Below, in pieces: positions 14,432 to 45,890 of a stretch of 64,000 nt of DNA. The notes below the pieces were generated by a model. It worked only from the letters and a program-made list of their open reading frames with translations, ran no database searches and had not been told where the DNA came from. A program made the position numbers and the translations under genes. The stretch's first letter is position 1, and each line of letters starts with the position of its first letter. The stretch comes from Erythrobacteraceae bacterium (lineage in GTDB: Bacteria > Pseudomonadota > Alphaproteobacteria > Sphingomonadales > Sphingomonadaceae). The stretch lies in contig CANJYE010000011.1 of NCBI GenBank assembly GCA_947479055.1, positions 1 to 64,000 on the forward strand, in the 5' to 3' direction.

Positions 14432-16093
14432 ATGGCAGGAACAGACGGCATGCTGGCCGAACCGCCGCTGATGGTGGACGATCCCGATGCGCAGGCATGG
14501 GACGATGTGGCCGATGTTGTGGTGGTCGGCTTCGGCGGAGCGGGGGCTGCCGCCGCGTTGCAGGCGCGCGAAAGCGGGGCGGACGTTCTCGCCATAGACC
14601 GGTTCGAAGGGGGCGGGGCCACCGCCTACAGCGGCGGGATCATCTATTCGGGCGGCAACACTGCGATCCAGCGCGACGCCGGGGTGACCGACGATGTCGA
14701 GGAGATGGTCCGTTATCTCGGGCTCGAAGTCGGCAACACCGTCTCATCCGCCACGGTGCGGCGCTATTGCGAAGAAAGCGGCGAGACGATCGAATGGCTG
14801 ATCGGCCATGGCGTGCCTTACGAAGGCTCGCTGTTTTCCGACAAGACCGCCTATCCGCCCGATGGCTATCACCTCTATTATTCCGGCAATGAACAGGTGG
14901 CGGGCTTCAAGGAACACGCAAAGCCCGCCGCGCGCGGCCATCGCCCGGTCGGCGCGGGGATGACTGGCCACGTCATGTTCGAGGCGCTGCGCCAGGCCGC
15001 CGGGGCGCAGGGCGTGCGCTTGCTGAACCATGCCCCTGTCACGCAACTGGTGACCGACGCCAGCGGCACGGTGATCGGCGTGGTGGTCAATGCATTGGAC
15101 GAAGGCGGGGCGCAGCGGCATCAGGCGCAATACAAGCGGGTTGTGCCGATGCTGCCGTTCAAGAACGGCACGATCGAGGATGCCCGCCGCAAATCCGCCG
15201 AAATCGAGCGGGCGAGCGGCCAGCGGCGGATGATCCGGGCGCGGGCGGGGGTGGTTCTTTCCACCGGCGGCTTCGTCAACAATCTCGACATGATGAAGCG
15301 CCACACCCCGTTGCTGGCGAAAAACTACCGGTCGAGCCTGCGGCTGGGCTCGCTTGGCTGCGATGGCAGCGGCATTCAGCTGGGCCAGTCGGCCGGGGGC
15401 GACGTGGCGCGGCTCGATCACATGCTGATCGCCCGCAACCTTGCCCCGCCGATGGCGCTGCTGAGCGGCATCCTCGTCAACAGCCAGGGGGAGCGATTCA
15501 TCAACGAAGGGACCTATTCGGGTTTCATGGGCCAGGCCATCACCGAGCAGCCCGATGTCACCGCCTGGCTGGTGGTGGATGGCGCGATCCTGCGCGAGGC
15601 GTTGAAGCAGATCGTCACCGGCGGCTGGACGCTGTTCATGTTCAGCGGGCCGCAATTGCTCAACATCCTGGCCGGCGGGACCAGGCGCGGGCGCACGCTG
15701 GAAAAGCTGGCGGGCAAATGCGGGATCGATCCCGAAGGATTGCGCGCGACCATCGAAGGCTACAACCGGGCCTGCGCTGCAGGCCGCGATCCGCTCGGCA
15801 AGTCGAAGGATTATCTGCGCCCGATCGAACGGCCTTCGTTCTACGCGATCAACCAGTCGATCTGGGCGCGGATGGGGTTCACCATGCTGTTCTCGCTCGG
15901 CGGGCTGAAAGTGGAGGAGGAAACGGGCGAAGTGCTGGACACCAGCGGCCAGCCGATCCGCCAGCTCTACGCCGCTGGCCGTGCGGCGCTGGGGCTGTGC
16001 TCCAATTCCTACATCTCGGGCCTGTCGATCGGTGACGCGGTATTTTCCGGTCGCCGCGCGGCGCGCCATATTACCGGTCGGCTCAACCCTTAG
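14432..16093 (+). CDS. FAD-dependent ring dehydrogenase, 3-ketosteroid Delta4-(5alpha)-dehydrogenase-like
   Basis: A 553-residue flavoprotein, paralogue of 22300-23958 (similar along the whole length). Seen: VVVGFGGAGAAAALQARESG (about residues 28-47), FEGGGATAYSGG, and near the C-terminus LCSNSYISGLSIGDAVFSG. In characterised Kst4D of Rhodococcus jostii a Tyr and Ser in a Y-x-S-G-L-S motif act in catalysis, and this protein keeps that pattern. Dehydrogenation of a saturated cyclic ketone is therefore proposed. Other members of this succinate-dehydrogenase-like group act on different ketones. The start has AGGGGAGA upstream. Its stop overlaps the stop of the convergent P450 gene by four bases. 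Confidence 0.85.
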   Translation: MAGTDGMLAEPPLMVDDPDAQAWDDVADVVVVGFGGAGAAAALQARESGADVLAIDRFEGGGATAYSGGIIYSGGNTAIQRDAGVTDDVEEMVRYLGLEVGNTVSSATVRRYCEESGETIEWLIGHGVPYEGSLFSDKTAYPPDGYHLYYSGNEQVAGFKEHAKPAARGHRPVGAGMTGHVMFEALRQAAGAQGVRLLNHAPVTQLVTDASGTVIGVVVNALDEGGAQRHQAQYKRVVPMLPFKNGTIEDARRKSAEIERASGQRRMIRARAGVVLSTGGFVNNLDMMKRHTPLLAKNYRSSLRLGSLGCDGSGIQLGQSAGGDVARLDHMLIARNLAPPMALLSGILVNSQGERFINEGTYSGFMGQAITEQPDVTAWLVVDGAILREALKQIVTGGWTLFMFSGPQLLNILAGGTRRGRTLEKLAGKCGIDPEGLRATIEGYNRACAAGRDPLGKSKDYLRPIERPSFYAINQSIWARMGFTMLFSLGGLKVEEETGEVLDTSGQPIRQLYAAGRAALGLCSNSYISGLSIGDAVFSGRRAARHITGRLNP

Positions 16094-22299: not shown

Positions 22300-23958
22300 A
22301 TGGCCAATCTTGAAACATGGGACCGCCCGGTCGAACCGCCGCTGGTGGTCGATGATGCCGATGGCGTGGCATGGGCCGAGGCCGCCGATGTGGTCGTCGT
22401 CGGCTTCGGCGGCGCGGGGGCATGCGCGGCGATCGAGGCGCGGGAGAACGGGGCGGACGTGATCGCGCTCGACCGCTTCGCCGGGGGCGGCGCGACCCGT
22501 TACAGCGGCGGGCTGGTCTATCTTGGCGGCGGCACCCCGGTGCAGCAGGAAGCCGGGGTGCAGGACACGCCCGAGGAGATGGCCAGATATCTCGCGCTGG
22601 AAGTGGGCGATGCCGCATCGCCCGAAGTGATCCGCCGCTACAGCGAAGGCAGCCCGGCGGAATTCGCCTGGCTGACCCGCCATGGCGTGCCCTTTTCCGG
22701 GCCGATCTACACCGGCAAGGCGGTGCTCGCGCCGGAAGGCTATTTCCTGCAATATTCCGGCAACGAGAAATCCCCGGCCTACGCCAGGGTCGCCAAACCG
22801 GCCGCGCGCGGGCACCGCACGGTGGGGGTGGGCTTCACCGGCTATGCCTTCTTCGATCCGCTGCGTGAGGCAGCGCAAGCGCTGGGCGTGCGGGTGATGA
22901 CCCACAGTCCGGTCAGCCGGCTGGTGATGGACAAGGCCGGCCGCGTCATCGGAGTTGAAGCGCGGGTGCTGGACGAGAGCAAGCGGGTTGAGCACGACGC
23001 GCTCTATGCCAGATGCAACCCGATGGCCCCGTTCAACGCCAGGCCAGCCGCCGAAGCATCGCGCGCGGCGGGCCAGCTGGAGGAAGCCCATTCGCGCACC
23101 GTCCTGATCCGCGCCCGGCGCGGGGTGGTGCTGTCCACCGGCGGCTTTTCCCACAACCACACGATGCTGGGGGAGCATGTCCCGCTGGTAGCGCGCAATG
23201 TCCATGCGACGATGCGGATGGCCTCGCTCGGCTGCAATGGTTCGGGCCACCAGCTCGGCACGTCGGCGGGAGGCGAGGCCAAGGGCATGGACCATATCTA
23301 TCTTGGCCGGATCATGGTGCCCGCGCGCTATGTCCGTGGCGCGATGGTCAACCGCCGGGGGGAACGGTTCGCGGCGGAGGATGCCTATAATTCCATCCTC
23401 GGCGCGGCGATCATGGCCCAGCCGGACGGGGAAGCCCGGCTGATCCTCAACGCCCGCGATTTCTGGGCGATCGTGCGCGAATGCCTGTTCAGCGGCATGG
23501 TGTTCCTGCGCTTCTTCGGCGGCGCGGCGATGCTCAACATCCTGTTCGGCGGGACCAAGCGGTCGGGATCGCTGGCGAAACTGGCGCGCAAATGCGGGAT
23601 GGACCCGGCGGTGCTGGAACAGACCATCGCCCGCTACAACGCCCCCGCCAATGGCGAGGACGAATTCGGCAAGCTTGCCGACAATTGTGGGCCGATCCGC
23701 GACAGCAGCTATTACGCGGTCAATTTCTCGATCAGCAATACCTTCGCTTTCAGCCAGTTGTTCACGCTGGGCGGGCTGGCGGTGGACGAGAACAGCGGGC
23801 TGGTGCTGCGGCCAGATGGCAAACCTGTTTCCGGCCTCTATGCCGCCGGGCGGACGGCTTTCGGGCTTTGTTCCAACAACTATGTCAGCGGGCTGTCGCT
23901 GGGCGACAATGTGTTCTCGGGGCGGCGCGCGGGCAGGCACGCGGCGAGCGCGGGATAG
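22300..23958 (+). CDS. FAD-dependent ring dehydrogenase, 3-ketosteroid Delta4-(5alpha)-dehydrogenase-like
   Basis: A 552-residue paralogue of 14432-16093. Seen: VVVGFGGAGACAAIEARENG, FAGGGATRYSGG and the C-terminal CSNNYVSGLSLGDNVFSG, which keeps the Y-x-S-G-L-S pattern of Kst4D catalytic residues. GGAGAGAGC precedes the ATG. It is co-transcribed with the metallo-beta-lactamase-fold hydrolase. Having two paralogues about 7 kb apart suggests successive or stereochemically different dehydrogenations of one substrate series; that is inference. Confidence 0.85.
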   Translation: MANLETWDRPVEPPLVVDDADGVAWAEAADVVVVGFGGAGACAAIEARENGADVIALDRFAGGGATRYSGGLVYLGGGTPVQQEAGVQDTPEEMARYLALEVGDAASPEVIRRYSEGSPAEFAWLTRHGVPFSGPIYTGKAVLAPEGYFLQYSGNEKSPAYARVAKPAARGHRTVGVGFTGYAFFDPLREAAQALGVRVMTHSPVSRLVMDKAGRVIGVEARVLDESKRVEHDALYARCNPMAPFNARPAAEASRAAGQLEEAHSRTVLIRARRGVVLSTGGFSHNHTMLGEHVPLVARNVHATMRMASLGCNGSGHQLGTSAGGEAKGMDHIYLGRIMVPARYVRGAMVNRRGERFAAEDAYNSILGAAIMAQPDGEARLILNARDFWAIVRECLFSGMVFLRFFGGAAMLNILFGGTKRSGSLAKLARKCGMDPAVLEQTIARYNAPANGEDEFGKLADNCGPIRDSSYYAVNFSISNTFAFSQLFTLGGLAVDENSGLVLRPDGKPVSGLYAAGRTAFGLCSNNYVSGLSLGDNVFSGRRAGRHAASAG

Positions 23959-24107: not shown

Positions 24108-25403
24108 ATGAAATTTGGCATTTTCGCGGAACTCGAACACCCGCGCCCCTGGACCGAGAACGGCGAGAAGGAGCTGTTTGACAACACGCTGGAACAGATC
24201 GAGCTCGCCGACCGGCTGGGCATCGATTACGCGTGGTCGGTCGAGCATCACTTCATGGAGGAATATTCCCATTCCACCGCGCCCGAAGTGTTCCTGGCCG
24301 CCGCCGCCGCGCGCACAAAGAACATCCGCATTGGTCATGGCGTCCGCCTGCTGCCGACTGAATATGCCCATCCCGCCCGGATCGCAGAGGCCACCGCCAC
24401 GCTGGACATCATCTCGGGCGGGCGGGTTGAATTCGGCACCGGCGAATCCGGCTCGCGGATCGAGCTGGAAGGCTATGGCATCGATCCCGACAGCAAGCGC
24501 GCGCAATGGACCGAAAGCATCGAACAGATCGCCGACATGATGGCGATGGACCCCTATCCGGGGTTCAATGGCAAATTCTTCTCCATGCCGGCGCGCAATG
24601 TCCTGCCCAAGAGCCTGCAGAAGCCGCATCCGCCGATGTGGGTGGCCTGTTCCAACAAGAAGACCATTCACCTCGCCGCCCGGCTGGGGCTGGGTGCGGC
24701 ATCGTTCACTTTCCTTGATCCGGCAGACGCCAAGCAGTGGATCGACGAATATTACGAGATTTTCCGCACCGAATGCGTGCCGATCGGCCATTCGGTCAAT
24801 CCCAATATCCTGCTGGTCACCGGCTTTGGCGTTCACCAGCAGCAACAGGTGGCGATGGACCGTTTCCTCGACGGTATCCGCTTCTTCCAGTACGCGCTCA
24901 ACCATTATTACCGCACCGGCGACCACCAGCCGGGCCGCACCGACCTGTGGGGCAGCTATATGGCGGAGCGCGAGGAACTGCTGAAGGCCGATCTCGATCC
25001 GTTGCTGATGCGCAATGTTGCCAACAGCCGGGGTGCGATCGGTTCGGTTGAGACCGTGCGCGAACATATCCGCAAGTTCCACGATATCGGCGTCGACCAG
25101 CTGGTGCTGCTGCAACAGGCAGGCAAGAACAAGCACGAGCATGTCTGCGAATCGCTGGAGCTGTTCGCGAAGGAAATCATGCCGGAATTCCACGAGGAGG
25201 AGGAAGAACGCCAGAAGAAGAAGGCGTCCGACCTTGCCCCCTTTATCGCCAAGGCGTTCGAGCGGAAGGCCGACAAGCGCCCGCTGCGGATGCCGGACGA
25301 GGACGTGCCGATCTTCCCTGCGGTGGATTATGTGCGCGGCTTCAACCGCACGCAGCCCTATCTCGGGAGCGTGCACGATCCCAAGGCGGCCGAGCGGCTG
25401 TAA
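24108..25403 (+). CDS. LLM-class flavin-dependent monooxygenase, long form
   Basis: A 431-residue bacterial-luciferase-like protein. Seen: IDYAWSVEHHFMEEYSHSTA (about residues 40-59), the LDIISGGRVEFGTGES block near 101-116 and PPMWVACSNKKTIHLAA near 175-191. It is longer than the other LLM proteins here, with a charged EEEEERQKKK stretch and a unique tail. The EHH-type motif is shared with alkanal monooxygenases, which need reduced FMN from a separate reductase; none is in the window. CAGGAG precedes the ATG. The esterase gene starts 31 bases after it, so it may be the first gene of the operon ending at 31990. Confidence 0.88.
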   Translation: MKFGIFAELEHPRPWTENGEKELFDNTLEQIELADRLGIDYAWSVEHHFMEEYSHSTAPEVFLAAAAARTKNIRIGHGVRLLPTEYAHPARIAEATATLDIISGGRVEFGTGESGSRIELEGYGIDPDSKRAQWTESIEQIADMMAMDPYPGFNGKFFSMPARNVLPKSLQKPHPPMWVACSNKKTIHLAARLGLGAASFTFLDPADAKQWIDEYYEIFRTECVPIGHSVNPNILLVTGFGVHQQQQVAMDRFLDGIRFFQYALNHYYRTGDHQPGRTDLWGSYMAEREELLKADLDPLLMRNVANSRGAIGSVETVREHIRKFHDIGVDQLVLLQQAGKNKHEHVCESLELFAKEIMPEFHEEEEERQKKKASDLAPFIAKAFERKADKRPLRMPDEDVPIFPAVDYVRGFNRTQPYLGSVHDPKAAERL

Positions 25404-25434
25404 GCGGGCGGCGGGATAGGCTATCGGCAGGGCC

Positions 25435-26310
25435 ATGGCATTGCGTGCGATCAGCTATGTCGGCGAAAGGCAGGGCAGCAAGCCCGCGCCTGCCGCCATG
25501 GCCGAACGGCGCAGGGCGATGAACGCGCGCGGCGATCCGGTTCCGGCTGGCGTCTCACTGGTCTCGGACGAAAGCGGGCCGGGCCGGAGCGAATGGGTCC
25601 TGCCCGAAGGGCTGCGCAGGCCGGGGACGATCCTCTATTGCCACGGCAGCGGCTATTCCAAGGGTTCGCCCGCCAGCCATCGCCCGCTGGTGGCTGCAAT
25701 CGTGCGCGAAAGCGGGATGGCCGCCTATGCGCTCGATTACCGGCTGGCGCCCGAACACCGCTTCCCCGCCGCGCTGGAAGATGCGCTGGCGGCCTATCGC
25801 CGCATGCTGGACAAGGTCGGGGCCGATTCGCTGGCGCTGGTTGGCGATTCCGCCGGGGGCGGGCTGGTGCTGGCCACGCTGCTGGCCGCGAAGGAGGAAG
25901 GGCTGGCGATGCCCGCCGCCGCCGTGACGCTTTCGGCCTGGACCGACCTTGCCGTCACCGGCGATCCCCGGCCCGATCTTGGCGATCCGCTGGTAACGCA
26001 ACCGATGCTGCGCGAGGCGGCGGCGCTTTATCTCGATGGGGCCGATCGGCGCGATCCCTATGCCTCGCCGCTGTACGGCGATCTTTCCGGCCTGCCACCG
26101 CTGCTGATGCAGGTCGGCGGGCGGGAGATCATGCTGGAGGATACCAGCCGCTTTGCAGCCCGGGCGAAGGCGGCGGGCGTGGCGGTGCGGCAGGCGATCT
26201 ATCCCGGCATGGCCCATGTCTTCCAGCTGAGCCATCCCGAAGCTTTCGAGGCCGGGACTGCGATCACCGAACTGGCGCATTTCGTGGCGGGCTGGATGCC
26301 AGGCAAATGA
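25435..26310 (+). CDS. HSL-family alpha/beta-hydrolase (esterase/lactonase)
   Basis: A 291-residue esterase of the hormone-sensitive-lipase group. The oxyanion-hole motif reads YCHGSGYSKGS (HGSG instead of the usual HGGG) near residue 66; DYRLAPEHRFPAALEDA is the typical family block; the nucleophile Ser is in GDSAGG (near 140); the Asp probably lies in GGREIMLED and the His in GMAHVFQ. It overlaps the next LLM gene by ATGA. Next to a possible flavin Baeyer-Villiger enzyme, opening of an ester or lactone is a reasonable role, though not shown. Confidence 0.92.
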   Translation: MALRAISYVGERQGSKPAPAAMAERRRAMNARGDPVPAGVSLVSDESGPGRSEWVLPEGLRRPGTILYCHGSGYSKGSPASHRPLVAAIVRESGMAAYALDYRLAPEHRFPAALEDALAAYRRMLDKVGADSLALVGDSAGGGLVLATLLAAKEEGLAMPAAAVTLSAWTDLAVTGDPRPDLGDPLVTQPMLREAAALYLDGADRRDPYASPLYGDLSGLPPLLMQVGGREIMLEDTSRFAARAKAAGVAVRQAIYPGMAHVFQLSHPEAFEAGTAITELAHFVAGWMPGK

Positions 26311-27242
26311 AATACGGCGTCACCATCCCGCAGGTCGAGATTGGCCGCGATCCCGCCCCGGTGCGCGCGCTGGCGCAGCGGGCCGAGGCGCTCGGCTATG
26401 ATTACCTCATGCTCTACGACCACGTGCTGGGCGCGGACATGGACATCCACAAGGACTGGCGGCCAAGGAACGGTGCCCCGCCGATCTACACCAGGGACGA
26501 TCTGTTCCACGAACCGCTGGTGCTCTACGGCTATCTCGCCGCCGTGACCGAGCAGATCGGGCTGGCCACCGGGGTCATCATCCTGCCCCAGCGCCAGACC
26601 GCTCTGCTGGCCAAGCAGGCGGCGGAAGTGGACGTGCTGTCGGGCGGGCGGCTGCGGCTGGGCTTCGGCACCGGCTGGAACGAGCTGGAATATCAGGGCC
26701 TCGGCATGAATTTCCATGATCGCGGCAAGCGCAGCGAGGAACAGATCGCGGTGCTGCGGATGCTGTGGACGCAGCCTTCGGTCAGCTTCAAGGGCCAGTG
26801 GCACGAACTGGACGGTGTCGGCATCAATCCGCTGCCCGATCAGCAGCCGATCCCGATCTGGCTGGGCGGGGCGGCCGATGCGGTGCTGGACCGGGTCGCG
26901 CGGCTGGCCGATGGCTGGTATCCGCCATCCTCCCTGCCGGAAGAGCGGCTGAGGGACAGCATCGCCACGCTCCATGCCTGTGCGACGCGGGCCGGGCGCA
27001 ATCCGGCCAGCATCGGGATCGAGGGCATCGTCCGCCTGCGCGACCGGACGATGGACGAATGCATCGACAATGTCCTGATGTGGCAGCGGCTGGGCGCCAG
27101 CCGGGTGACATTCAACACCGAATCCCCGATCATGTGGAACCGGCTGGGCGGCAACCGGCCCGATCGGGAAAACGCCGGCATGTCCCACCAGCAGCGGCTG
27201 GAACGGATTGCAGAGTTCAAGCAACGCGTGGACGCGCTGTGA
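26307..27242 (+). CDS. LLM-class flavin-dependent oxidoreductase
   Basis: A 311-residue luciferase-like protein, of the same subgroup as 8007-8936. Seen: LGYDYLMLYDHVLGADM near the N-terminus, QIGLATGVIILPQRQTALL, LSGGRLRLGFGTGWNELEY and PIPIWLGG. The start at 26307 is fixed by ATGA overlap with the esterase stop; the frame is open much further upstream inside the esterase gene, but that is a shadow. Known members of this class include type II Baeyer-Villiger monooxygenases (FMN-dependent), which would fit an esterase partner. F420 use is less likely in this type of organism. Confidence 0.9.
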   Translation: MKYGVTIPQVEIGRDPAPVRALAQRAEALGYDYLMLYDHVLGADMDIHKDWRPRNGAPPIYTRDDLFHEPLVLYGYLAAVTEQIGLATGVIILPQRQTALLAKQAAEVDVLSGGRLRLGFGTGWNELEYQGLGMNFHDRGKRSEEQIAVLRMLWTQPSVSFKGQWHELDGVGINPLPDQQPIPIWLGGAADAVLDRVARLADGWYPPSSLPEERLRDSIATLHACATRAGRNPASIGIEGIVRLRDRTMDECIDNVLMWQRLGASRVTFNTESPIMWNRLGGNRPDRENAGMSHQQRLERIAEFKQRVDAL

Positions 27243-27274
27243 TGGCGCGGGCCACCAAGGAGAGGAATGCAGCG

Positions 27275-28420
27275 ATGAGCGACGGCGAGGTCTTCCAGAT
27301 CAACACCGAGATCAACGAGCAGGAGATCGCCCGCGCGCGCGAATTCCTGAACGTGCCGCTGCGCATCCAGCAGTACAACCACGAGGCGACCCGCGACACG
27401 ATCCGCCACTATGCCTATGGCGTGGGCGACGACAATCCGCTGTGGTGCGATCCGGCCTATGCGGCGCAAGGCCCGCACGGCGTGATCGTGGCACCGCCGA
27501 CCTTCTACTACACCTTCTTTTCCGCCGGGATCACGCCCTGCTTCGATGGGCTTCAGGCCTTCTTCGGCGGCGGCAGGTTCAAGGTTCACCGGCTGGTCCG
27601 GCGCGGCGAGGAAGTGGTGGCAACCGCCAGGCTGGTCGACATGTACGAGGCCAGCGGCAAGACCGCTGCCAAGATGGTGATCCAGGTCGGCAATGTCGCC
27701 TATCACACCAGGGACGGCGAACTCTTGTGCGAATATGAAAGCCGCGCGATCCGCACACCGCGCAGCAAGGGTTCGGGCGGCCCGACCCACGCCCCGCGCG
27801 AGGCCTATCGCTACAGCGATGCGGAATATGCCGCGATCGAGGCGGAGGTGCTTGCCCAGACCCGGCGCGGCGCGGATGCGCGCTATTGGGAAGATGTCGC
27901 AGTGGGCGAGGAACTGCCCGCCCGCGTCAAAGGCCCGATGAACATGGCCACCTACATGTCGTACTATGCCGGCAACCTCAACGGCGCGGGCTATGTCGCT
28001 TGCGAGATGCAGTGGCGCACCCGCCACAACGCGCAGCACCACCCGGAACTGGTCCCCAACAATCGTGGCCTTGGCTGGCTGATCGAGCAGACCTGGCCGG
28101 GCGTTGCCCATACCGACGACAAGACCGCTCGCGCGGTCGGCATGCCGGGGGCCTATGACAATGGCTGGAACCGGCTTGGCTGGATGAGCCAGGTGGTGAC
28201 CGACTGGTGCGGCGATGACGGGCATCTCGATGAAATCGACGTGCGCGTGCGCAAGCCCAACATCATGGGCGACACCACGTGGTGCAAGGGCAAGGTCACG
28301 GCCAAGCGGGTGGAGGATGGCCAGCACATCGTCGATGTCGAGTTGACCGGCACCAACCAGCTTGGCGATGTCAACACCACCGGCACCGCCAGCGTCATCC
28401 TCCCCTCGCGCGCTGCCTGA
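27275..28420 (+). CDS. Double-hotdog MaoC-like acyl-CoA dehydratase
   Basis: A 381-residue protein made of two hotdog halves. The N-terminal half (FAS1-like dehydratase type) carries YAYGVGDDNPLWCDPAYA and VIVAPPTFYYTFF; the C-terminal half begins near residue 200 with RYWEDVAVGEELP. This layout fits MaoC-type enoyl-CoA hydratases/dehydratases of side-chain or unusual fatty-acid oxidation. The start at 27275 is chosen for the AAGGAGAGG site 9 bases upstream; an ATG at 27242 overlapping the LLM stop would add eleven residues. The CoA-transferase follows after two bases. Confidence 0.88.
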   Translation: MSDGEVFQINTEINEQEIARAREFLNVPLRIQQYNHEATRDTIRHYAYGVGDDNPLWCDPAYAAQGPHGVIVAPPTFYYTFFSAGITPCFDGLQAFFGGGRFKVHRLVRRGEEVVATARLVDMYEASGKTAAKMVIQVGNVAYHTRDGELLCEYESRAIRTPRSKGSGGPTHAPREAYRYSDAEYAAIEAEVLAQTRRGADARYWEDVAVGEELPARVKGPMNMATYMSYYAGNLNGAGYVACEMQWRTRHNAQHHPELVPNNRGLGWLIEQTWPGVAHTDDKTARAVGMPGAYDNGWNRLGWMSQVVTDWCGDDGHLDEIDVRVRKPNIMGDTTWCKGKVTAKRVEDGQHIVDVELTGTNQLGDVNTTGTASVILPSRAA

Positions 28421-28422
28421 CG

Positions 28423-29649
28423 ATGCTGCCGCTGGAAGGCATCCGGGTCCTCGCGCTCGAACAATATTATGCCGGCAATATCGGCAGCCTGATCCTGCGC
28501 CGTTTCGGGGCGGAAGTGATCAAGGTCGAGATGCCCGGCGCGGGCGATGCCATGCGCCACATCGGCCCTCGCGACGAAGGGGCGGACGGGCACAGCCGCA
28601 GCCTGTCCGAACTGCGGGTGATGCTGGGCAAGAAGAGCGTGGCGGTGGACATGGGTACGCCGGAAGGCAAGGCAATCGTCCTTGGCCTCGCGGCGAAGAG
28701 CGATGTCGTGTGGTCGAACATGAAGCCGTCCTCGCTGCGCAAGCTTGGCTTCACCTTCGAGGCGTTCCAGCAGGCCAACCCGGAGATCATCTATACCACC
28801 CTTTCGGGCTTCGGTCATGACGATGTCGTGCCCGACGGGCCGATGGGTGATTGGGTGGCGTTCGACATCATCGCGCAGGGGCTGGCGGGGCTCCAGTTCC
28901 GGGTCGAGACCGAGGGCGAGAGCGACGAGCCGCGTTACAACGGCCTCGCACTGGGCGATCAGGTCACCGCGCTGCAAGCCGTGATCGGCACGGTGATGGC
29001 GCTGTACAAGCGAAAGCGGGATGGCGGGGCACAGCGGGTCGATGTGGCGATGCACGATGCGATGCTGCAACTGAACGAGCTGTCGCTGGCCTTCACCGAC
29101 TGGACCGGCAAGCCGCCCTCGCGCGGGCGCTCCAGCACCAGTTCGCCCTATGGGGCGTTTCGCAGCAAGGATGGCTTCGTCAACATTGCGGTGGGCGGCA
29201 CGCCCGTCTGGCGACGCTTTGCCAGGGCGATGGGGCGGCCCGAACTGGCCGACGATCCCCGCTTCAGGGAAGCGCGCAGCCGGGTGGCCAACAACAGCGA
29301 GCTGGAAGCGATCGTCACTGGCTGGAGCCTGTTGCACACCACCGATGAAGTGGTCGCCATGCTCCATGCCGAAGGCGTGCCCAGCGCGCCGGTCTATACC
29401 CTGCCGCAGGTGCTGGAGAGCCCGCAGGTGCCAGCACGCAACATGCTCTACACCATCGACGATGCCGCGATCGGCCCGCGCCGGGTGCTGGGCAATCCGA
29501 TCAAGCTGGCGGGCGTGCCGGACGAACCTTCGGGCACCGCGCCCGACATTGCCCGCGACACGCGCGCGGTCCTGGCCGAACTGCTGGGCATGGACCAGTC
29601 GCGCATTGAGGAACTGGCCTGCGCCGGGATCGTCGGGCTGCCGGCATGA
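28423..29649 (+). CDS. Class III (CaiB/BaiF) CoA-transferase or acyl-CoA racemase
   Basis: A 408-residue protein of the formyl-CoA transferase/alpha-methylacyl-CoA racemase family. Seen: the opening LEGIRVLALEQYYAGNIGS, FGAEVIKVE, the W-S-N-M-K-P block, and AFDIIAQGLAGLQ, where the Asp matches the catalytic Asp of the family. Transfer of CoA between acids and racemisation at a 2-methyl branch cannot be told apart from sequence alone. A racemase would fit branched side chains of isoprenoid or steroid type. It lies within the tight operon 25435-31990 and overlaps the aldolase start by four bases. Confidence 0.92.
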   Translation: MLPLEGIRVLALEQYYAGNIGSLILRRFGAEVIKVEMPGAGDAMRHIGPRDEGADGHSRSLSELRVMLGKKSVAVDMGTPEGKAIVLGLAAKSDVVWSNMKPSSLRKLGFTFEAFQQANPEIIYTTLSGFGHDDVVPDGPMGDWVAFDIIAQGLAGLQFRVETEGESDEPRYNGLALGDQVTALQAVIGTVMALYKRKRDGGAQRVDVAMHDAMLQLNELSLAFTDWTGKPPSRGRSSTSSPYGAFRSKDGFVNIAVGGTPVWRRFARAMGRPELADDPRFREARSRVANNSELEAIVTGWSLLHTTDEVVAMLHAEGVPSAPVYTLPQVLESPQVPARNMLYTIDDAAIGPRRVLGNPIKLAGVPDEPSGTAPDIARDTRAVLAELLGMDQSRIEELACAGIVGLPA

Positions 29650-30797
29650 GCAAGGCGCGCATCACCGGAGCTTTTGACACCGCCGTGGGCGAACTGCCCG
29701 GCTCGACCTGCATGGGCCTCCATGCCGAGGCCGCCATGGGCGCAGTGGCGGATGCCGGGCTCAGGCTGGCGGACATCGACGGGGTGATCTGCGCCTATTC
29801 CTTCACCGAACCGCATCTGATGCTGGCCTCGGTGTTCTGCGAGCATCTGGGCATCCACCCCGACGTCAATTTCGCGATCCAGGCAGGCGGGGCGACCGCC
29901 GCGATCATGCTGATGCAGGCCGCCGCGCTGGTCGAGAGCGGGCAATGCCGCCATGTCCTGATCGTGGCGGGCGACAATCGCATCACGGGGATGAGCCGGG
30001 ATGGCGCGGTGGCGGCGCTGTCCGAAGTTGGCCACCAGCAGTTCGAGCGGCCCTATGGCATCTCGGTGCCCGCCTCCTACGCGCTGGTCGCGCGCCGCTA
30101 CATGGACGAATACGGTGCGACGCTGGAGCATCTCGCTGCGATTGCGGTGCAGCATCGCGAACACGCCATGCGGCACCCCAAGGCGCAGAAGCGCGGAGAC
30201 CTGACCATTGCCGATGTGATGGCCTCACGCATCATTTCCTCGCCGCTGCGGATCTTCGATTGCTGCCTGATCTCCGATGGCGGCGCGGCGCTGGTGGTAA
30301 GCGCCGCCGATGCCGCCGCCGACACGCGGCAAGCGCGCGTCGATATCCTCGGTTGCGGGCAGGGCCATACGCATGAACATATCAGCCAGGCCCCATCGCT
30401 GACCGACTTCGGCTGCAAGCAATCCAGCGCCATTGCCTTCGGCAGGGCGGGAGTCGCCGCGCGCGATATCGACGTGGCGGAAATCTATGACAGCTTCACC
30501 ATTACCCTGCTGGTGGAACTGGAATCGATCGGATTCTTCGAGCGCGGCGCGGCCGGGCCAGCGGCGCTGGACGGCGCGCTGGGCCTGGGCGGGAGCCTGC
30601 CCTGCAACACCCATGGCGGCTTGCTGTCCTACGGCCATTCCGGCGCGGCGGGGGGCATGTTCCATATCATCGAGGCGGTCCACCAGTTGCGTGGGACTGC
30701 CGATGCGCGGCAGGTGAGTGATGCAAAGCTCGCCTTCATCCATGGCGATGGCGGCATCCTGTCTGCCCATTGCTCCGCCGTGCTGGGGAGGGTCTGA
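29646..30797 (+). CDS. Thiolase-superfamily Ltp2-like protein, probable aldolase
   Basis: A 383-residue thiolase-fold protein, second of its kind in the window. As in 4019-5200, the usual nucleophilic Cys is missing (segment QAGGATAAIMLMQ). The motifs VAEIYDSFTIT and NTHGGLLSYGHSGAAGG are kept. It overlaps the CoA-transferase by ATGA, and the DUF35 gene starts on its last base. By analogy to Ltp2-ChsH2 of actinobacteria it should carry out retro-aldol cleavage of a hydrated acyl-CoA; this is inference from the family and the gene order. Confidence 0.9.
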   Translation: MSKARITGAFDTAVGELPGSTCMGLHAEAAMGAVADAGLRLADIDGVICAYSFTEPHLMLASVFCEHLGIHPDVNFAIQAGGATAAIMLMQAAALVESGQCRHVLIVAGDNRITGMSRDGAVAALSEVGHQQFERPYGISVPASYALVARRYMDEYGATLEHLAAIAVQHREHAMRHPKAQKRGDLTIADVMASRIISSPLRIFDCCLISDGGAALVVSAADAAADTRQARVDILGCGQGHTHEHISQAPSLTDFGCKQSSAIAFGRAGVAARDIDVAEIYDSFTITLLVELESIGFFERGAAGPAALDGALGLGGSLPCNTHGGLLSYGHSGAAGGMFHIIEAVHQLRGTADARQVSDAKLAFIHGDGGILSAHCSAVLGRV

Positions 30798-31192
30798 TGG
30801 GCATTCCGCTGCCAAAGACCAATGCCGATACGCAGCCCTATTGGGATGCGGCTGCCGAGGGTCGGTTGATCTATCAGCACTGCCTTACCTGCAACAAGTC
30901 GCAGTTCTATCCGCGCAGCCTGTGCGCCACCTGCCATGGCGGCGCGCTGGAATGGCGGGAATCCCAAGGGCAGGGCACTGTCGCGACTTTCACCGAAGTG
31001 CTGCGCGCGCCAACCGCCGCGTTCAAGGAACTGGCCCCCTATGTCATCGCGCTCATTGATCTGGACGAGGGTTTCCGGATGATGGTCAACATCGTCGAAG
31101 GCGACATGGAAAGGCTCGCCATCGGCGCGCGCACCCGCACGGTTTTCCGGGAAGTGGACGGCATCACCCTGCCGCAGGGAGCGCTGGCATGA
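30797..31192 (+). CDS. DUF35 OB-fold/zinc-ribbon protein
   Basis: A 131-residue protein with the zinc-ribbon cysteines in HCLTCNKSQFYPRSLCATC (CxxC...CxxC, about residues 27-45) and a C-terminal OB-fold part (GTVATFTEVLRAP onward). It shares the QPYWDAAAEGRL opening with the DUF35 protein at 3570-4022. It starts on the last base of the aldolase stop (TGATG) and overlaps the next hotdog gene by four bases. In mycobacteria this domain is fused to a MaoC hotdog as ChsH2; here the two parts are separate genes. Confidence 0.9.
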   Translation: MGIPLPKTNADTQPYWDAAAEGRLIYQHCLTCNKSQFYPRSLCATCHGGALEWRESQGQGTVATFTEVLRAPTAAFKELAPYVIALIDLDEGFRMMVNIVEGDMERLAIGARTRTVFREVDGITLPQGALA

Positions 31193-31587
31193 CGGACAAG
31201 GTGATGCTCTTTGCGGACTTCGTTCCGGGCGTCCTGCTCGCTGAAGTCGATGACCACATCAGCGCTGAACAGCTTGCCGAATGGGCCCAGCTTTACCCGT
31301 GGGACAAGGCCAGCGAAGGCTTCGTCCCCACAAGCCTTGCCACCGTTCTTCTCATGCGTAGCTATCACAAGGCGATCCCGCATCGCCCGCCGGGCAATAT
31401 CCATGCCGGACAAAAGATGCAGTTCCTGTCCTCGATCCGGCCCGGCGAAACCGTGACGACTATCGTTGTCTGCCAGGCGGCGGAGCGCAAGGGTGAACGT
31501 CGCAAGCTTGAGCTTGGCGTCGTCGGCCGGGGCGAGGACGGGCGCACGGTTTACACAGGTCTCATCACACTGTTCTGGGCTGCATGA
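31189..31587 (+). CDS. Single-hotdog MaoC/FAS1-like dehydratase subunit
   Basis: A 132-residue protein with a hotdog-like pattern: an N-terminal strand (MLFADFVPGVLL), the central helix region PTSLATVLLMRSYHKAIPHR, then GNIHAGQKMQFLSSIRPGETV and the final strands. It lacks the D-x-x-x-x-H hydratase motif of catalytic MaoC proteins, so it is probably the non-catalytic half of a heteromeric hydratase with the next gene. It overlaps the DUF35 gene by ATGA and ends one base before the MaoC start. Family assignment is by pattern and is less certain than for its neighbours. Confidence 0.75.
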   Translation: MTDKVMLFADFVPGVLLAEVDDHISAEQLAEWAQLYPWDKASEGFVPTSLATVLLMRSYHKAIPHRPPGNIHAGQKMQFLSSIRPGETVTTIVVCQAAERKGERRKLELGVVGRGEDGRTVYTGLITLFWAA

Positions 31588-31588
31588 C

Positions 31589-31990
31589 ATGAACGCGAAA
31601 ACGCTCGAACCCGTCAGCCTTGCGGTCGATGAGGCCGCCATCCAGCGATACGCCCGGATCACTGGCGACTATAACCCGATCCATGTCGACCCCGCCTTCG
31701 CCGCGAACACCGAAATGGGTGGAGTGATCGCTCATGGCACGATGTCGCTCAACCTCATCTGGCAGGCGCTGGAAAAGACGCTGGGCAGCGCGGTTCTGCC
31801 TTCGGTCGAACTCGAAATCCGCTTCCGCCGGCCGGTCAGGCCGGGCGATGTGATCGAAGGCGGCGGCGTGCTGGATGCGGATGGCACCAGCTACAGCGTG
31901 TGGGCGCGCAACCAGCGGGGGGAGAACGTGATCGAAGGAACAGCCCGGCTGGATGGAACGGCGAAACCCGTTCCGCTCAGCCCAGGTTGA
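31589..31990 (+). CDS. MaoC-type (R)-specific enoyl-CoA hydratase subunit
   Basis: A 133-residue single-hotdog hydratase. The catalytic segment is clear: YARITGDYNPIHVDPAFA (about residues 22-39; Asp and His of the hydratase motif) followed by GVIAHGTMSLNLIWQ. It is the last gene of the operon and follows its likely partner by one base. It corresponds in size and place to ChsH1 of the actinobacterial igr operon. Its 3' end overlaps the end of the convergent aldehyde dehydrogenase gene by 14 bases. Confidence 0.9.
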   Translation: MNAKTLEPVSLAVDEAAIQRYARITGDYNPIHVDPAFAANTEMGGVIAHGTMSLNLIWQALEKTLGSAVLPSVELEIRFRRPVRPGDVIEGGGVLDADGTSYSVWARNQRGENVIEGTARLDGTAKPVPLSPG

Positions 31991-33473
31991 TCCAGACGGA
32001 CTTGGTCTCAAGGTACTGATAGAGATGTTCGATCCCGCTTTCCCGCCCGATCCCGCTGGACTTGAACCCGCCGAACGGCATGGCCGGGTCGGTCGACTGG
32101 TAGCAGTTGATCCAGACCGATCCGGCGCGCAGGCCCTTGGCCATCTTGTGCGCGGTGGACAGATTGGTGGTCCACACCCCGCTGCCGAGGCCGTATTCGG
32201 TGTCGTTGGCGCGGCGCATCACATCGTCGATATCGCTGAACGGCAGGGCGGAAATGACCGGGCCGAAGATCTCCTCGCGGGCGATCGCCATCTCGTCGCG
32301 CACGCCCTTGAACACGGTCGGGGCAACGAAGAAGCCCTTGTCGTAATCGCCCCCGGTCAGCCGGGCGCCGCCGGAGAGGGCAATCGCGCCCTCGCTCGGC
32401 CCGCTGGCGAGATAGCGCTGCACCGTCTCCAGCTGGCGGGCGGACACCACCGGGCCGATTTGCGTTTCGGGCAGCGCGCTGTCGCCCACTTTCAGCGCCT
32501 TGCCAAAAGCGGCGACCCGTTCGACGAATTCGTCATAGACCGGTGCTTCCACGAACAGCCTTGTGCCGGCCGAGCAGATCTGGCCGGAATTGGCGAACAC
32601 CGCCATCGCCGCCCCGGGGACGGCGGCATCGAGATCGGCATCGGCAAAGACGATGTTGGGAGACTTCCCGCCCAGTTCCAGGCTCAGCCGCTTGAAATTG
32701 CCCGCGCTCGCCTCGATCAACCGGCGGCCGGTGCCGGTCGATCCGGTGAAGGCGACTTTGTCCACCCCCGGATGCGCGGCCAGCGCCGCCCCGGCCTGGT
32801 GGCCATAGCCGGTGACGATATTGACCACGCCAGCGGGCAGGCCCGCTTCCATCAGCAATTCGCCCAGCCGCAGCGCTGTCAGCGGCGCTTCCTCGGACGG
32901 CTTGAGCACCACGGTGCAGCCGGTGGCCAGCGCCGGGGCGATCTTCCAGACGCAAGCGACCAGCGGCCCGTTCCACGGAATGATCGCGCCGACCACGCCG
33001 ATCGGGTCCTTCAGCGTGAAGGAGGCGAAATTGCCGGGCATGGAGTTCTCGACCGTCTCGCCATGCAGCGCAGTGGCCATTCCGGCGTAGAAGCGCAGCA
33101 TCCCGATCACCCGCTGGCGGCGCATCCGGGTGACGCTGATCGGTGCGCCCATGTCGAGCGTGTCGAGCCAGCACAGTTCCTCGAAGTTGGCGTCGATCAG
33201 ATCGGCCCATTTGAGCAGGATTTCCTGCCGCTGGAACGGCTTGAAGCGCGCCCATTCGCCTTCGAAAGCGGCGCGCGCGGCGGCAACGGCGCGGTTCACA
33301 TCTTCCGCGTCACCGGCGGCAAAATTGGCCAGCAGTTCACCGGTGGAGGGGTTGAGCGTGGCAATGGTCGCGCCTCTTGCGGCGCTGACCCACTGGCCGC
33401 CGATCAGCAGCTTCCTGTCCTGCCCGTCGAGGAAGCGGTGTCCCCGGCGGCTGTCGGGCGTGGCGTCGTTCAT
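31977..33473 (-). CDS. Aldehyde dehydrogenase (NAD(P)-dependent)
   Basis: A 498-residue enzyme oxidising an aldehyde to the acid. Seen: the cofactor motif AFTGSTGTGRRL, the catalytic Glu in LELGGKSPN (about residue 265), and the nucleophilic Cys in NSGQICSAG (about 299). Length is normal. It is convergent with the MaoC operon and divergent from the Baeyer-Villiger monooxygenase gene. It could act on the aldehyde left by alcohol oxidation (GMC enzymes) or by aldol cleavage. Confidence 0.95.
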   Translation of the reverse strand: MNDATPDSRRGHRFLDGQDRKLLIGGQWVSAARGATIATLNPSTGELLANFAAGDAEDVNRAVAAARAAFEGEWARFKPFQRQEILLKWADLIDANFEELCWLDTLDMGAPISVTRMRRQRVIGMLRFYAGMATALHGETVENSMPGNFASFTLKDPIGVVGAIIPWNGPLVACVWKIAPALATGCTVVLKPSEEAPLTALRLGELLMEAGLPAGVVNIVTGYGHQAGAALAAHPGVDKVAFTGSTGTGRRLIEASAGNFKRLSLELGGKSPNIVFADADLDAAVPGAAMAVFANSGQICSAGTRLFVEAPVYDEFVERVAAFGKALKVGDSALPETQIGPVVSARQLETVQRYLASGPSEGAIALSGGARLTGGDYDKGFFVAPTVFKGVRDEMAIAREEIFGPVISALPFSDIDDVMRRANDTEYGLGSGVWTTNLSTAHKMAKGLRAGSVWINCYQSTDPAMPFGGFKSSGIGRESGIEHLYQYLETKSVWINLG

Positions 33474-42992: not shown

Positions 42993-44138
42993 ATGACAAA
43001 GCCCGACAATAGCGCCACTACTGACGCCGAAATGGCCGATCTGCCAGACGAGACCTTGCCGCTCGATGCCTGGCACCGTTCGCGCAGGGGCCGAATGGTG
43101 TCGTTTGCGGGCTATGCGATGCCGATCCAGTATGAAGGGATCATGGCGGAACACCTGTGGACGCGCGACCATGCCGGGCTGTTCGATGTCTCGCACATGG
43201 GTCAGCTCGAACTGAGCGGGGAGGGTGTCGTTGCCGCACTGGAAGCGCTGGTGCCCGGCGATATCGCCGCGCTGGCGCCAGGGCGGATCCGCTACAGCCT
43301 GCTGCTGAACGCGGATGGCGGCATCCTGGACGATCTGATGATTACCAATGCCGGCGATCACCTGTTCCTGGTGGTGAACGGCGCGACCAAGTGGGACGAT
43401 ATCGCCCATCTGCGCGAAGAACTGCCCGATGAAATCACGATCAACCACCTGGACGAGCATGCCCTGCTGGCGTTGCAGGGGCCGGAAGCGGCAGCGGCGC
43501 TGGCGGCGCTGGTACCGGATGCCACCGGGCTGTTCTTCATGGAAGCCGGCCAGTTCACCTGGAACGGCGTGCCGCTGGGCATCAGCCGCTCGGGCTATAC
43601 CGGCGAGGATGGCTTCGAGATTTCGCTCCCGGCCGAGCGGGCGGAAGCTTTCGCCGATGCGCTCTGCGCCTTGCCGCAGGTCAGGCCGATCGGGCTTGGC
43701 GCGCGCGATTCACTGCGGCTGGAAGCGGGTCTGCCGCTTTACGGCCACGATCTGGACGAGGGGGTGACCCCGGTCGAGGGCGATCTGGCCTTCGCGATTT
43801 CGAAACGTCGCCGGGCTGAGGGCGGTTTCCCCGGTGCGGACCGGATACTGGCCCAGCTGGCCGGGGGCGCGCCGCGTCGCCGGGTCGGGCTGGCGATCGG
43901 GGGACGCCAGCCGGTGCGCGAAGGTGCGCCGCTGTTCCTTGGCGGGCAGGACGTGGGCGTGGTCACCTCGGGCGGCTTTGCCCCCAGTGTCGGCGCCCCG
44001 GTTGCGATGGGCTTCGTCGCTGCTGCCCATGCCGCGCCCGGCACCGCGCTGGAGGCCGAAGTGCGCGGCCGGAGGATCGCGGTCAGGGTCGCTCCATTGC
44101 CCTTTATCCCCCACCGCTACCACCGCAGAGGAGGCTGA
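42993..44138 (+). CDS. gcvT: Glycine cleavage system T protein (aminomethyltransferase)
   Basis: A 381-residue tetrahydrofolate-dependent enzyme that releases ammonia and passes the C1 unit to THF, giving methylene-THF. Seen: the typical opening MVSFAGYAMPIQYEGIMAEH, DHAGLFDVSHMGQ, the SRSGYTGEDGFEI block, and the C-terminal barrel domain with APVAMGFV. Residues 1-13 are an extra leader; an internal Met (codon 14) is a possible alternative start. It is first in gcvT-gcvH-gcvPA-gcvPB, three bases before gcvH. No glycine riboswitch was recognised upstream. Confidence 0.96.
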   Translation: MTKPDNSATTDAEMADLPDETLPLDAWHRSRRGRMVSFAGYAMPIQYEGIMAEHLWTRDHAGLFDVSHMGQLELSGEGVVAALEALVPGDIAALAPGRIRYSLLLNADGGILDDLMITNAGDHLFLVVNGATKWDDIAHLREELPDEITINHLDEHALLALQGPEAAAALAALVPDATGLFFMEAGQFTWNGVPLGISRSGYTGEDGFEISLPAERAEAFADALCALPQVRPIGLGARDSLRLEAGLPLYGHDLDEGVTPVEGDLAFAISKRRRAEGGFPGADRILAQLAGGAPRRRVGLAIGGRQPVREGAPLFLGGQDVGVVTSGGFAPSVGAPVAMGFVAAAHAAPGTALEAEVRGRRIAVRVAPLPFIPHRYHRRGG

Positions 44139-44141
44139 CGC

Positions 44142-44516
44142 ATGAGCCGCTATTTTACCGATGAACATGAATGGATCGACGTGGAAGGCGATATCGCGAC
44201 CGTCGGCATCACCGATTACGCGCAGGAACAGCTTGGCGATATCGTGTTCGTCGAGCTGCCCGCACCGGGCGCAACCATCGAAGCGGGCAAAGAAGCGGCC
44301 GTGGTCGAATCCGTAAAGGCGGCTTCGGACGTGTTCTCGCCGATCAGCGGGGAAGTGGTCGATACCAATTCCGACCTGGAAGACGATCCCGCGCTGGCCA
44401 ACGCCAGCCCCGAAGCCGACGGGTGGTTCTTCCGCTTGCGGATGAGCGATCCGGCCCAGCTTCAGGGCCTGATGGATGATGCCGGCTACAAGGCCTTCCT
44501 CGAAACCCTCGATTAA
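44142..44516 (+). CDS. gcvH: Glycine cleavage system H protein
   Basis: A 124-residue lipoyl carrier that shuttles the aminomethyl group between P and T proteins. The lipoylation site is Lys59 in VVESVKAASDVFSPISGEV. The opening YFTDEHEWIDVEGD and the length are standard. A GGAGG site lies at the end of gcvT. It is co-transcribed with gcvT and gcvPA. Confidence 0.97.
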   Translation: MSRYFTDEHEWIDVEGDIATVGITDYAQEQLGDIVFVELPAPGATIEAGKEAAVVESVKAASDVFSPISGEVVDTNSDLEDDPALANASPEADGWFFRLRMSDPAQLQGLMDDAGYKAFLETLD

Positions 44517-44531
44517 GGCTGCGGTTCCCCG

Positions 44532-45890
44532 ATGCGTTACCTCCCGCTCAACGATGCCGACCGCGCCGCGATGTGCGCGAAAATCGGCGTGGCTGCGATC
44601 GACGATCTGTTCGTGGACGTGCCGGCCGAAGCCCGCCTCACCGGCCCGATTGAAGGGCTGCCGCCGCACGCCACCGAACTGGCGGTGGAGCGGCACATGG
44701 CGGCGCTGGCCCGGCGCAACCTTTCCGCCGGGGACGCGCCGTTCTTCCTTGGCGCGGGGGCCTATCGCCATCATATCCCGGCCAGTGTCGACCATCTGAT
44801 CCAGCGCGGCGAATTCCTGACCGCCTATACGCCCTACCAGCCGGAAATTGCGCAGGGCACGCTGCAGATGCTGTTCGAATTCCAGACCCAGGTGGCGCGG
44901 CTGTTCGGCTGCGATGTCGCCAATGCCTCGATGTACGATGGCTCGACCGCTTGCTGGGAGGCGATCTCGATGGCGCGGCGGATCACGAAGCGGGGGCGGG
45001 TGCAGCTGTCGGGTGGGCTTCATCCACATTACGTCTCGGTCGCGCAGACCATGGCCCGCTTCACCGGCGATGTGCTGGATGTCGCCGCGCCTGATCTTTC
45101 CGCCGCGAACGACAGCGAGGCGCTGATCGCCGCGATTGACGAGCGGACAAGCTGCGTGGTGGTCCAGTATCCCGACATCCTTGGCCGGATCGGCGATCTC
45201 GCCGCGTTGGCGGTAGCCGCTCATGCCAAAGGCGCACTGCTGGTGGCGGTGGTGACCGAACCGGTGGCGCTGGGCGCGATCAGGAGCCCGGGCGAAATGG
45301 GCGCGGATATCGTGGTGGGCGAAGGCCAGGCGATCGGCGTCGGCCTGCAATTCGGCGGGCCGTATCTCGGCCTGTTTGCCACCCGCAAGGAATATGTCCG
45401 CCAGATGCCGGGCCGTCTGTGCGGGCAGACGGTGGATGCCGAAGGGCGGCGCGGCTTCGTGCTGACGCTCTCCACTCGCGAACAGCATATCAGACGCGAG
45501 AAAGCGACTTCCAATATCTGCACCAATTCAGGGCTTTGTGCGCTAGCCTTCTCAATTCACATGAGTTTGCTGGGCGAACAGGGGCTGCGCGCGCTGGCCC
45601 TGCAGAACCATGCCCTTGCCACTGCGGCGGCGGACCGGCTGGCGCAGGTGCCGGGGGTCAGGGTTGTCAATGACCACTATTTCAACGAGTTCACGATCGA
45701 ACTTCCCACGGAATCGCGCGGCGTGGTCCGCACGCTGGCTGACCGGGGCATTCTCGCCGGGGTGCCGCTGGGCAAGCTCTATCCGGGCCATGCCGCGCTC
45801 GCCAACGGGCTGGTGGTGGCGGTGACCGAGACGACCACGGCGCAGGATGTCGAACAGCTGGCGGTTGCCCTTGCGGAGGTGCTGTCATGA
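44532..45890 (+). CDS. gcvPA: Glycine dehydrogenase (decarboxylating) subunit 1
   Basis: A 452-residue alpha half of the split P protein, which decarboxylates glycine with PLP together with GcvPB. Seen: the opening [44 protein letters not shown] and the [19 protein letters not shown] block. It does not carry the PLP lysine, which is on GcvPB. Fifteen bases separate it from gcvH; it overlaps gcvPB by ATGA. Confidence 0.97.

Follow-up and report, generated by a model that had tools for sequence, protein, structure and literature searches.

A recurring proteobacterial four-gene operon predicted to encode a heteromeric enoyl-CoA hydratase and a DUF35-dependent retro-aldolase

A 64,000-nucleotide stretch of contig C11 (hereafter the window), from the draft genome of an Erythrobacteraceae bacterium (3.03 Mb, 94.5% complete), carries a cassette of four genes at 29646-31990 on the + strand. 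They encode an Ltp2-like thiolase-fold lyase, a free DUF35 protein, a single hotdog protein without the catalytic motif (HDa) and a catalytic MaoC hotdog. We computed gene content, folds, motifs, homology and operon conservation, and on this basis the four genes probably specify a heteromeric enoyl-coenzyme A (CoA) hydratase and a DUF35-dependent retro-aldolase for a beta-substituted, probably non-steroid acyl-CoA. Judged by its sequences, the cassette is one instance of a recurring proteobacterial four-gene operon that branches separately from the mycobacterial cholesterol side-chain machine, which it resembles. In the literature searched, whose coverage was partial, we found no description of this operon.

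Results

Organization of the cassette

The four genes are arranged as follows (aa, amino acids).

29646..30797, + strand: Ltp2-like thiolase-fold lyase, 383 aa, with Tyr281, Ser283, His323, His331 and His366 and no nucleophilic Cys
30797..31192, + strand: free DUF35 protein, 131 aa, with a zinc ribbon (C29-C32-C43-C46) and an OB fold
31189..31587, + strand: HDa, single hotdog without D-x4-H, 132 aa, with RPxGNxHxxQ at R66-Q75
31589..31990, + strand: catalytic MaoC hotdog, 133 aa, with Asp27 and His32 (DYNPIH)

They close a co-directional run of nine genes (24108-31990, +). Junctions are tight (CoA-transferase/lyase -4, lyase/DUF35 -1, DUF35/HDa -4 and HDa/MaoC +1 bp), a spacing that appears typical of one translationally coupled operon. 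An earlier reading made from the sequence alone (the sequence-only reading) had placed four separate, tightly packed genes here, and both coordinates and junctions bear this out.

The lyase lacks the thiolase nucleophile and forms a distinct clade

The lyase matches the Pfam family Thiolase_C_1 (1.3e-56), and its PDB matches are, in order, 4u4e (4.9e-83), 9myr_A (5e-56) and 6ok1_A (6.5e-45). A constant residue offset of 24 in 9myr_A puts Tyr302, Cys304, Gln352 and Gly89 at the positions published for CtSal (PMC12329534), which identifies this chain as CtSal. In HMMER alignments, lyase Gly82 corresponds to CtSal Gly89 and occupies the position of the thiolase nucleophile; the nucleophilic Cys is absent from the window protein, as the sequence-only reading had noted, and from 64/64 cassette lyases. 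A true thiolase was rejected on this ground. The same alignments equate Tyr281 with CtSal Tyr302 and TcLtp2 Tyr294, Ser283 with CtSal Cys304 and TcLtp2 His296, and His331 with CtSal Gln352 and TcLtp2 Tyr344. Tyr281, Asp282, Ser283, Phe284, His323, His331 and His366 are invariant in all 64 cassette-linked lyases.

In a phylogenetic tree whose PDB references are partial sequences, cassette lyases and Bradyrhizobium-type relatives form a YDSF clade (support 0.987), with CtSal, TcLtp2 and 4u4e outside. The closest solved relative, 4u4e, shares YDSF, a His at the His331 position and HGxGG with the cassette lyase, but has Asn in place of His323. On Achromobacter and Celeribacter plasmids, relatives carry YDCF instead of YDSF and adjoin a MaoC gene; their active sites may be intermediate between the Sal type and the cassette type.

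The lyase and DUF35 protein could instead be another thiolase-superfamily catalyst, such as a PhlC-like C-C-forming acyltransferase, a decarboxylase or a retro-Claisen hydrolase, with the hotdogs as an ordinary hydratase. The position of His331 (GHxG) is typical of thiolases, and to our knowledge no function has been described for 4u4e. PhlABC and BbsAB have DUF35 partners as well (PMC12329534). We nevertheless regard this alternative as unlikely, given the uniformly missing nucleophile, the invariant retro-aldolase Tyr281 and three loci, described below, in which a citrate-lyase-type enzyme takes the place of the lyase.

A free DUF35 partner

The DUF35 protein matches zf-ChsH2 (5.5e-14) and OB_ChsH2_C (3.6e-19) in Pfam and, in the PDB, the DUF35 partners of the CtSal and TcLtp2 complexes. 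Its CxxC...CxxC zinc motif recurs in 63/67 cassette DUF35 proteins, the remaining four being start-truncated gene calls. By sequence, a thiolase-fold lyase gene thus adjoins the gene for a zinc-ribbon/OB partner, as in DUF35-dependent thiolase-superfamily complexes. DUF35 and hotdog lie in separate open reading frames (30797-31192 and 31189-31587), with no ChsH2-type fusion.

An unfused DUF35 is nothing unusual. The source genome encodes 11 Thiolase_C_1 and 11 DUF35 proteins, mostly in adjacent separate genes, and free DUF35 genes are the rule there. These genes are spread over contigs C2, C4, C11, C12, C17, C18, C39, C41, C54 and C68, and the motifs of the 11 Thiolase_C_1 proteins vary (YDHF, YDAF, YDPF, YDGF, YENF, YDSF, HDCF). 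A precedent is ipfD/ipfE, which we liken to the cassette by description only; its substrate is an aryl-propionyl-CoA dihydrodiol, and we know of no hydratase pair that accompanies it. In the ibuprofen-degrading sphingomonad concerned, ipfDE are separate genes and the thiolase-like enzyme is described as a retro-aldolase (PMC9195938). A recent split of ChsH2 was rejected, since cassette loci have separate DUF35 genes and the lyase clade differs.

One hotdog with and one without the catalytic motif

Searched as a single sequence, HDa found no match in the PDB even at E 10, and its Pfam matches are sub-threshold, FAS1_DH_region (7.6e-4) falling just below the cut-off. A profile search matched PhaJ1 at 7.7e-6. 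An AlphaFold2 model built from a 66-sequence alignment is a hotdog (predicted local distance difference test (pLDDT) 92.4, predicted template modelling score (pTM) 0.84), for which Foldseek returned HadA (1.2e-6) as best match, PhaJ1 (3.1e-6) and a ChsH1-ChsH2 chain (5.5e-6), each with probability 1.00, as well as MaoC-like proteins. Model, fold matches and the PhaJ1 profile match agree with the hotdog assignment made earlier for 31189-31587. Profile comparison of HDa with MaoC gave a probability of 13%, so it is the fold rather than the sequence that speaks for their kinship.

The MaoC protein is a standard R-hydratase hotdog (Pfam MaoC, 4.8e-21). Of the partner MaoC proteins 83/84 carry D-x-N-P-x-H, and of the HDa proteins 0/85, in agreement with the earlier description of the third protein as a hotdog without the catalytic motif and the fourth as a catalytic MaoC. 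HDa instead carries RPxGNxHxxQ, invariant in 85/85 proteins, and the idea that it is a decayed pseudo-subunit was rejected on this evidence. A comparable division of labour exists in the (3R)-hydroxyacyl-acyl carrier protein (ACP) dehydratases HadAB and HadBC, where HadA is the non-catalytic partner of HadB (PMC11321319). Those enzymes differ in serving ACP-linked mycolic acid synthesis, and the RPxGNxHxxQ motif is particular to HDa, which shares 14% identity with HadA in the best alignment.

In single-chain models the central helix spans 15 residues in HDa (48-62) and 16 in MaoC. Published lengths are 16 residues in PhaJ, 18 in ChsH1 and 9 in both Shy and ChsH2 (PMC11321319). As modelled, the cassette hotdog helices are PhaJ-like, not of the short steroid-hydratase type.

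The gene order recurs across Proteobacteria

A single-sequence HDa search of genome contigs yielded no locus, and a 399-genome sample of the phylum no strong HDa homologue. The sequence-only reading had proposed a search for the same gene order in other sphingomonads; among 300 further genomes from this family there was no clear HDa homologue, only three weak partial matches, and within this sample sphingomonads do not conserve the order. A lyase-based search found Bradyrhizobium-type relatives at ~50% identity in operons without hotdogs, suggesting that the cassette is not conserved, a view overturned by an HDa-seeded scan. As a separate observation, ten loci in large alphaproteobacterial genomes (L078-L084, L086, L107, L108) pair a YDSF lyase and DUF35 with CoA-transferase and acyl-CoA dehydrogenase genes and have no hotdog pair.

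Distant HDa copies came from a tblastn search of plasmids (~34% identity in Azospirillum, similar in roseobacters) and provided a usable profile. Scanning 84,980 species genomes with the HDa alignment, by one peptide pattern, gave at least 80 loci; the true number is larger. We read 79 of the 80 with our own gene caller, which also supplied the gene starts, and HDa was the sole bait. The order lyase-DUF35-HDa-MaoC is found at 54/79 loci and the permuted order HDa-MaoC-lyase-DUF35 at 5/79. The rest comprise three where DUF35 is present and no lyase adjoins (one of these lies at the edge of a contig), 16 with HDa-MaoC alone and one other. MaoC follows HDa in 78/79. Because 54 of 79 independently found loci share one order, the gene set is not a chance association.

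Many of the loci belong to Burkholderiales, Azospirillum, Roseomonas relatives and roseobacters. Azospirillum argentinense and Roseovarius indicus have the same four-gene order and Paracoccaceae La 6 the permuted one; in Sulfitobacter and Antarctobacter, HDa has no adjoining lyase. The window cassette combines the defining features, that is, lyase-DUF35-HDa-MaoC order, RPxGNxHxxQ in HDa and YDSF/His331/His366 in the lyase.

At three loci (Sulfitobacter, Chachezhania and Thalassospira; L139 11989-13569, L209 9953-11575 and L210), HDa-MaoC is followed by a citrate-lyase-type (CitE/HpcH) enzyme and there is no Ltp2-like/DUF35 pair. The Sulfitobacter protein, the only one of the three tested, matches HpcH_HpaI at 1.1e-30. 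This type of enzyme is unrelated to the thiolase superfamily, and its known relatives cleave by an aldol-type reaction. By sequence, the lyase has here been exchanged for a non-homologous one, while the hydratase pair is retained.

A further locus, in a gammaproteobacterial metagenome-assembled genome (L219 3161-9312), has in a row a double hotdog, HDa, MaoC, an uncharacterised 801-aa protein, ECH and an esterase; it has several components, none of them a lyase, in common with the window operon.

Evolutionary rates and origin

Median identity between the window proteins and their homologues is 72% for the lyase, 49% for MaoC, 45% for DUF35 and 35% for HDa. By this measure the lyase is the most constrained part and HDa, outside its motif, the least. 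The window lyase belongs to a 16-member clade (support 0.947) that also contains sequences from Achromobacter, Bordetella and Comamonas. Because the lyase nests with betaproteobacterial sequences and the 300 sampled genomes of its own family have no clear HDa homologue, horizontal acquisition from a betaproteobacterium is probably the simplest explanation. The base composition of the cassette does not stand out.

Genomic context and substrate

Upstream of the cassette lie five co-directional genes, those from 25435 on in the same putative operon; an aldehyde dehydrogenase gene converges on the cassette end.

24108..25403, + strand: LLM-class monooxygenase, opening the co-directional run
25435..26310, + strand: alpha/beta-hydrolase esterase of the hormone-sensitive-lipase type
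26307..27242, + strand: LLM-class monooxygenase, TIGR03619 family
27275..28420, + strand: double hotdog (FAS1_DH / MaoC), 381 aa
28423..29649, + strand: class III CoA-transferase, overlapping the lyase gene by 4 bp; a role in activation is possible
31977..33473, - strand: aldehyde dehydrogenase, convergent neighbour; may oxidize an aldehyde product

The esterase, LLM monooxygenase and CoA-transferase listed upstream by the sequence-only reading are present; the double hotdog between the last two had been overlooked. The operon thus holds two hydratase-type enzymes, this 381-aa protein two genes upstream of the cassette and the hotdog pair. Beyond the aldehyde dehydrogenase lies a Baeyer-Villiger-type monooxygenase.

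Neighbours at the 63 cassette loci include acyl-CoA dehydrogenase (47/63), ECH-type hydratase (53/63), ADP-forming ligase (36/63), E1-alpha (22/63) and E2 (14/63) genes, together with organic-acid transport components. Neighbours of the homologous operons are organic-acid transporters, acyl-CoA ligases and 2-oxoacid dehydrogenases, not steroid genes. The substrate is probably non-steroid, contexts elsewhere pointing to smaller organic acids; perhaps these are beta-carboxylated and release a 2-oxo acid.

Stated more narrowly, the retro-aldolase proposal would have the cassette act on beta-carboxylated enoyl-CoAs (itaconyl- or mesaconyl-like, alkyl-substituted), with HDa Arg66, Asn70 and His72 binding the carboxylate, and release acyl-CoA and a 2-oxo acid, the latter passing to the neighbouring E1/E2. 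Retention of RPxGNxHxxQ in all 85 copies of an otherwise fast-evolving HDa, the E1-alpha and E2 genes, the HDa-MaoC-CitE arrangement and the organic-acid transporters are consistent with such a substrate. However, it is drawn from context only, the window operon contains neither E1/E2 nor an organic-acid transporter, and Arg66 could bind CoA instead; we give this specific version a low probability.

Elsewhere in the window, 11165-12304 encodes a 379-aa protein that matched nothing in Pfam or NCBIfam at the thresholds applied, and 43095-47443 and 56562-61656 hold the T, H and P genes of glycine cleavage and genes similar to those of an NAD-linked molybdopterin formate dehydrogenase, apparently unrelated to the cassette.

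Proposed reaction sequence

We infer that the cassette proteins form a complex and propose the following order of reactions. The CoA-transferase would activate the acid. HDa, as a non-catalytic, substrate-binding subunit, and MaoC, through its Asp27/His32 dyad, would together act as an (R)-type hydratase that adds water to a 2-enoyl-CoA, as dyad and fold suggest. The lyase and DUF35 would then cleave the 3-hydroxyacyl-CoA by a retro-aldol reaction to acetyl- or acyl-CoA and a carbonyl compound, a step suggested by homology, by the lack of a nucleophile and by the Tyr base. Tyr281 would act as base on the hydroxyl and His331 as acid. Product oxidation could fall to the aldehyde dehydrogenase in the window and to E1/E2 complexes in other genomes. 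Such a route would suit acids whose beta carbon resists oxidation to the ketone needed for normal thiolysis. Two solved relatives with the same subunit pairing, CtSal-ShyDUF35 and TcLtp2-ChsH2DUF35, are retro-aldolases (PMC12329534). The order hydrate-then-cleave is independently supported by the three loci that swap the lyase for a citrate-lyase-type enzyme.

Several observations weigh against this proposal. The catalytic acid is Cys304 in CtSal and Tyr344 in TcLtp2, and Cys304Ser abolishes CtSal activity (PMC12329534); the cassette clade carries Ser at this position, so its acid must be elsewhere. Our candidate is His331, which stands at the TcLtp2 Tyr344 position and is the likely acid in this proposal. 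At 16/79 loci the hotdog pair has no adjacent lyase, so a single complex of hydratase and lyase is not a necessity. ECH and acyl-CoA dehydrogenase genes, which usually precede the cassette, are missing from the window operon, whose substrate may therefore differ from that of other cassettes. Finally, we found no report of an activity, complex or function for any member of the cassette lyase clade.

Comparison with igr, Sal and the steroid alternative

Like the mycobacterial igr system (ChsH1-ChsH2-Ltp2; TcLtp2-ChsH2DUF35, PDB 6OK1), the cassette has a Cys-less thiolase-fold lyase, a C4 DUF35, one hotdog with and one without the catalytic motif and a Tyr base (Y281, TcLtp2 Y294). In igr, however, DUF35 and hotdog are fused as ChsH2, Ltp2 has YDHF and Tyr344 in contrast to the YDSF and His331 of all 64 cassette lyases, which form a distinct clade, and the inert-hotdog central helix is 9 residues long compared with 15 in the single-chain HDa model. 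A ChsE1-ChsE2 acyl-CoA dehydrogenase pair adjoins igr, whereas 24108-31990 has none; the only acyl-CoA dehydrogenase among the annotated window genes (2422-3573) lies on the strand opposite the cassette.

Gram-negative igr counterparts are already published, as ORF40-44 (PMC12502768) and Shy/Sal (PMC11321319, PMC12329534). Shy-Sal of Comamonas testosteroni (PDB 9MYR, 8VWR) is likewise a proteobacterial hydratase with a DUF35-dependent aldolase, and among the PDB matches of the cassette lyase CtSal ranks second (5e-56). Shy, though, is a homodimeric MaoC-DUF35 fusion whose helix is short; the residues used by Sal are Tyr302/Cys304 (YDCY), with Cys304 at the position of cassette Ser283, and the Shy-Sal zinc finger is C3H1, not C4. 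C. testosteroni TA441 ORF40-44 also joins a hydratase pair to an aldolase (PMC12502768), but is steroid-specific, has a natural MaoC-DUF35 fusion and lies in a steroid mega-cluster with ChsE1-ChsE2 genes. Its MaoC and DUF35 parts kept both activities when expressed separately (PMC12502768), so a natural split is workable.

The sequence-only reading had described the cassette as a split igr. Separate genes for a hydratase and a Cys-less DUF35-dependent lyase do occur here in a Gram-negative bacterium, but the lyase belongs to the distinct YDSF/His331 clade. That the cassette is strictly an unfused igr machine, hydrating and cleaving the C3 or C5 side chain of a steroid or steroid-like terpenoid, seems improbable. 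It would suit the surroundings: KstD-like FAD_binding_2 proteins at 9254-10969 (-), 14450-16093, 22300-23958 and 48240-49661, a P450 and GMC oxidoreductases, and an Ltp2-type pair in the same window. The genome encodes eight KstD-like proteins, scoring 400-500 bits against 3-oxosteroid 1-dehydrogenase, but all fall under the cut-off of 788, and no TIGR03213 extradiol dioxygenase was found in this incomplete draft genome. The lyase has YDSF/His331 rather than YDHF/Tyr344 or YDCY. The steroid side-chain role assigned earlier also fails to fit the PhaJ-like helices (15-16 vs 9; PMC11321319) and the non-steroidal neighbours of homologous operons. Even so, a terpenoid or steroid may be what the catabolic island of the window degrades, in which case the cassette would work on a side chain or other small piece.

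The Ltp2-type pair lies at 3570-5200 (-). The 4019-5200 protein has TcLtp2 as best PDB match (3.7e-61), with YDHF and the aligned Tyr, and its gene shares 4 bp with the free DUF35 gene (3570-4022) that accompanies it. It groups with TcLtp2 at a tree support of 0.26, so its assignment rests on motif and pairwise score. By sequence this pair is a better igr-like candidate in the window than the cassette. Its neighbours are an acyl-CoA dehydrogenase, an aldo/keto reductase and an acyl-CoA ligase.

Discussion

Hydratase/aldolase complexes of this type have been characterised mainly in steroid catabolism. Tentatively, the cassette may represent an unnamed hydratase/retro-aldolase class that combines a third active site, Tyr281/His331 (compared with Tyr/Tyr in Ltp2 and Tyr/Cys in Sal), with an inert-hotdog RPxGNxHxxQ site for a carboxylated substrate, and serves branched organic acids outside steroid metabolism. 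A third catalytic constellation is in itself a plausible proposal. If true, a widespread non-steroid operon with other catalytic residues would make the design a general one and would help to re-annotate many 'acetyl-CoA acetyltransferases' and 'hypothetical' hotdogs. As a small, unfused four-protein set, the cassette makes the need for fusion and substrate channelling directly testable.

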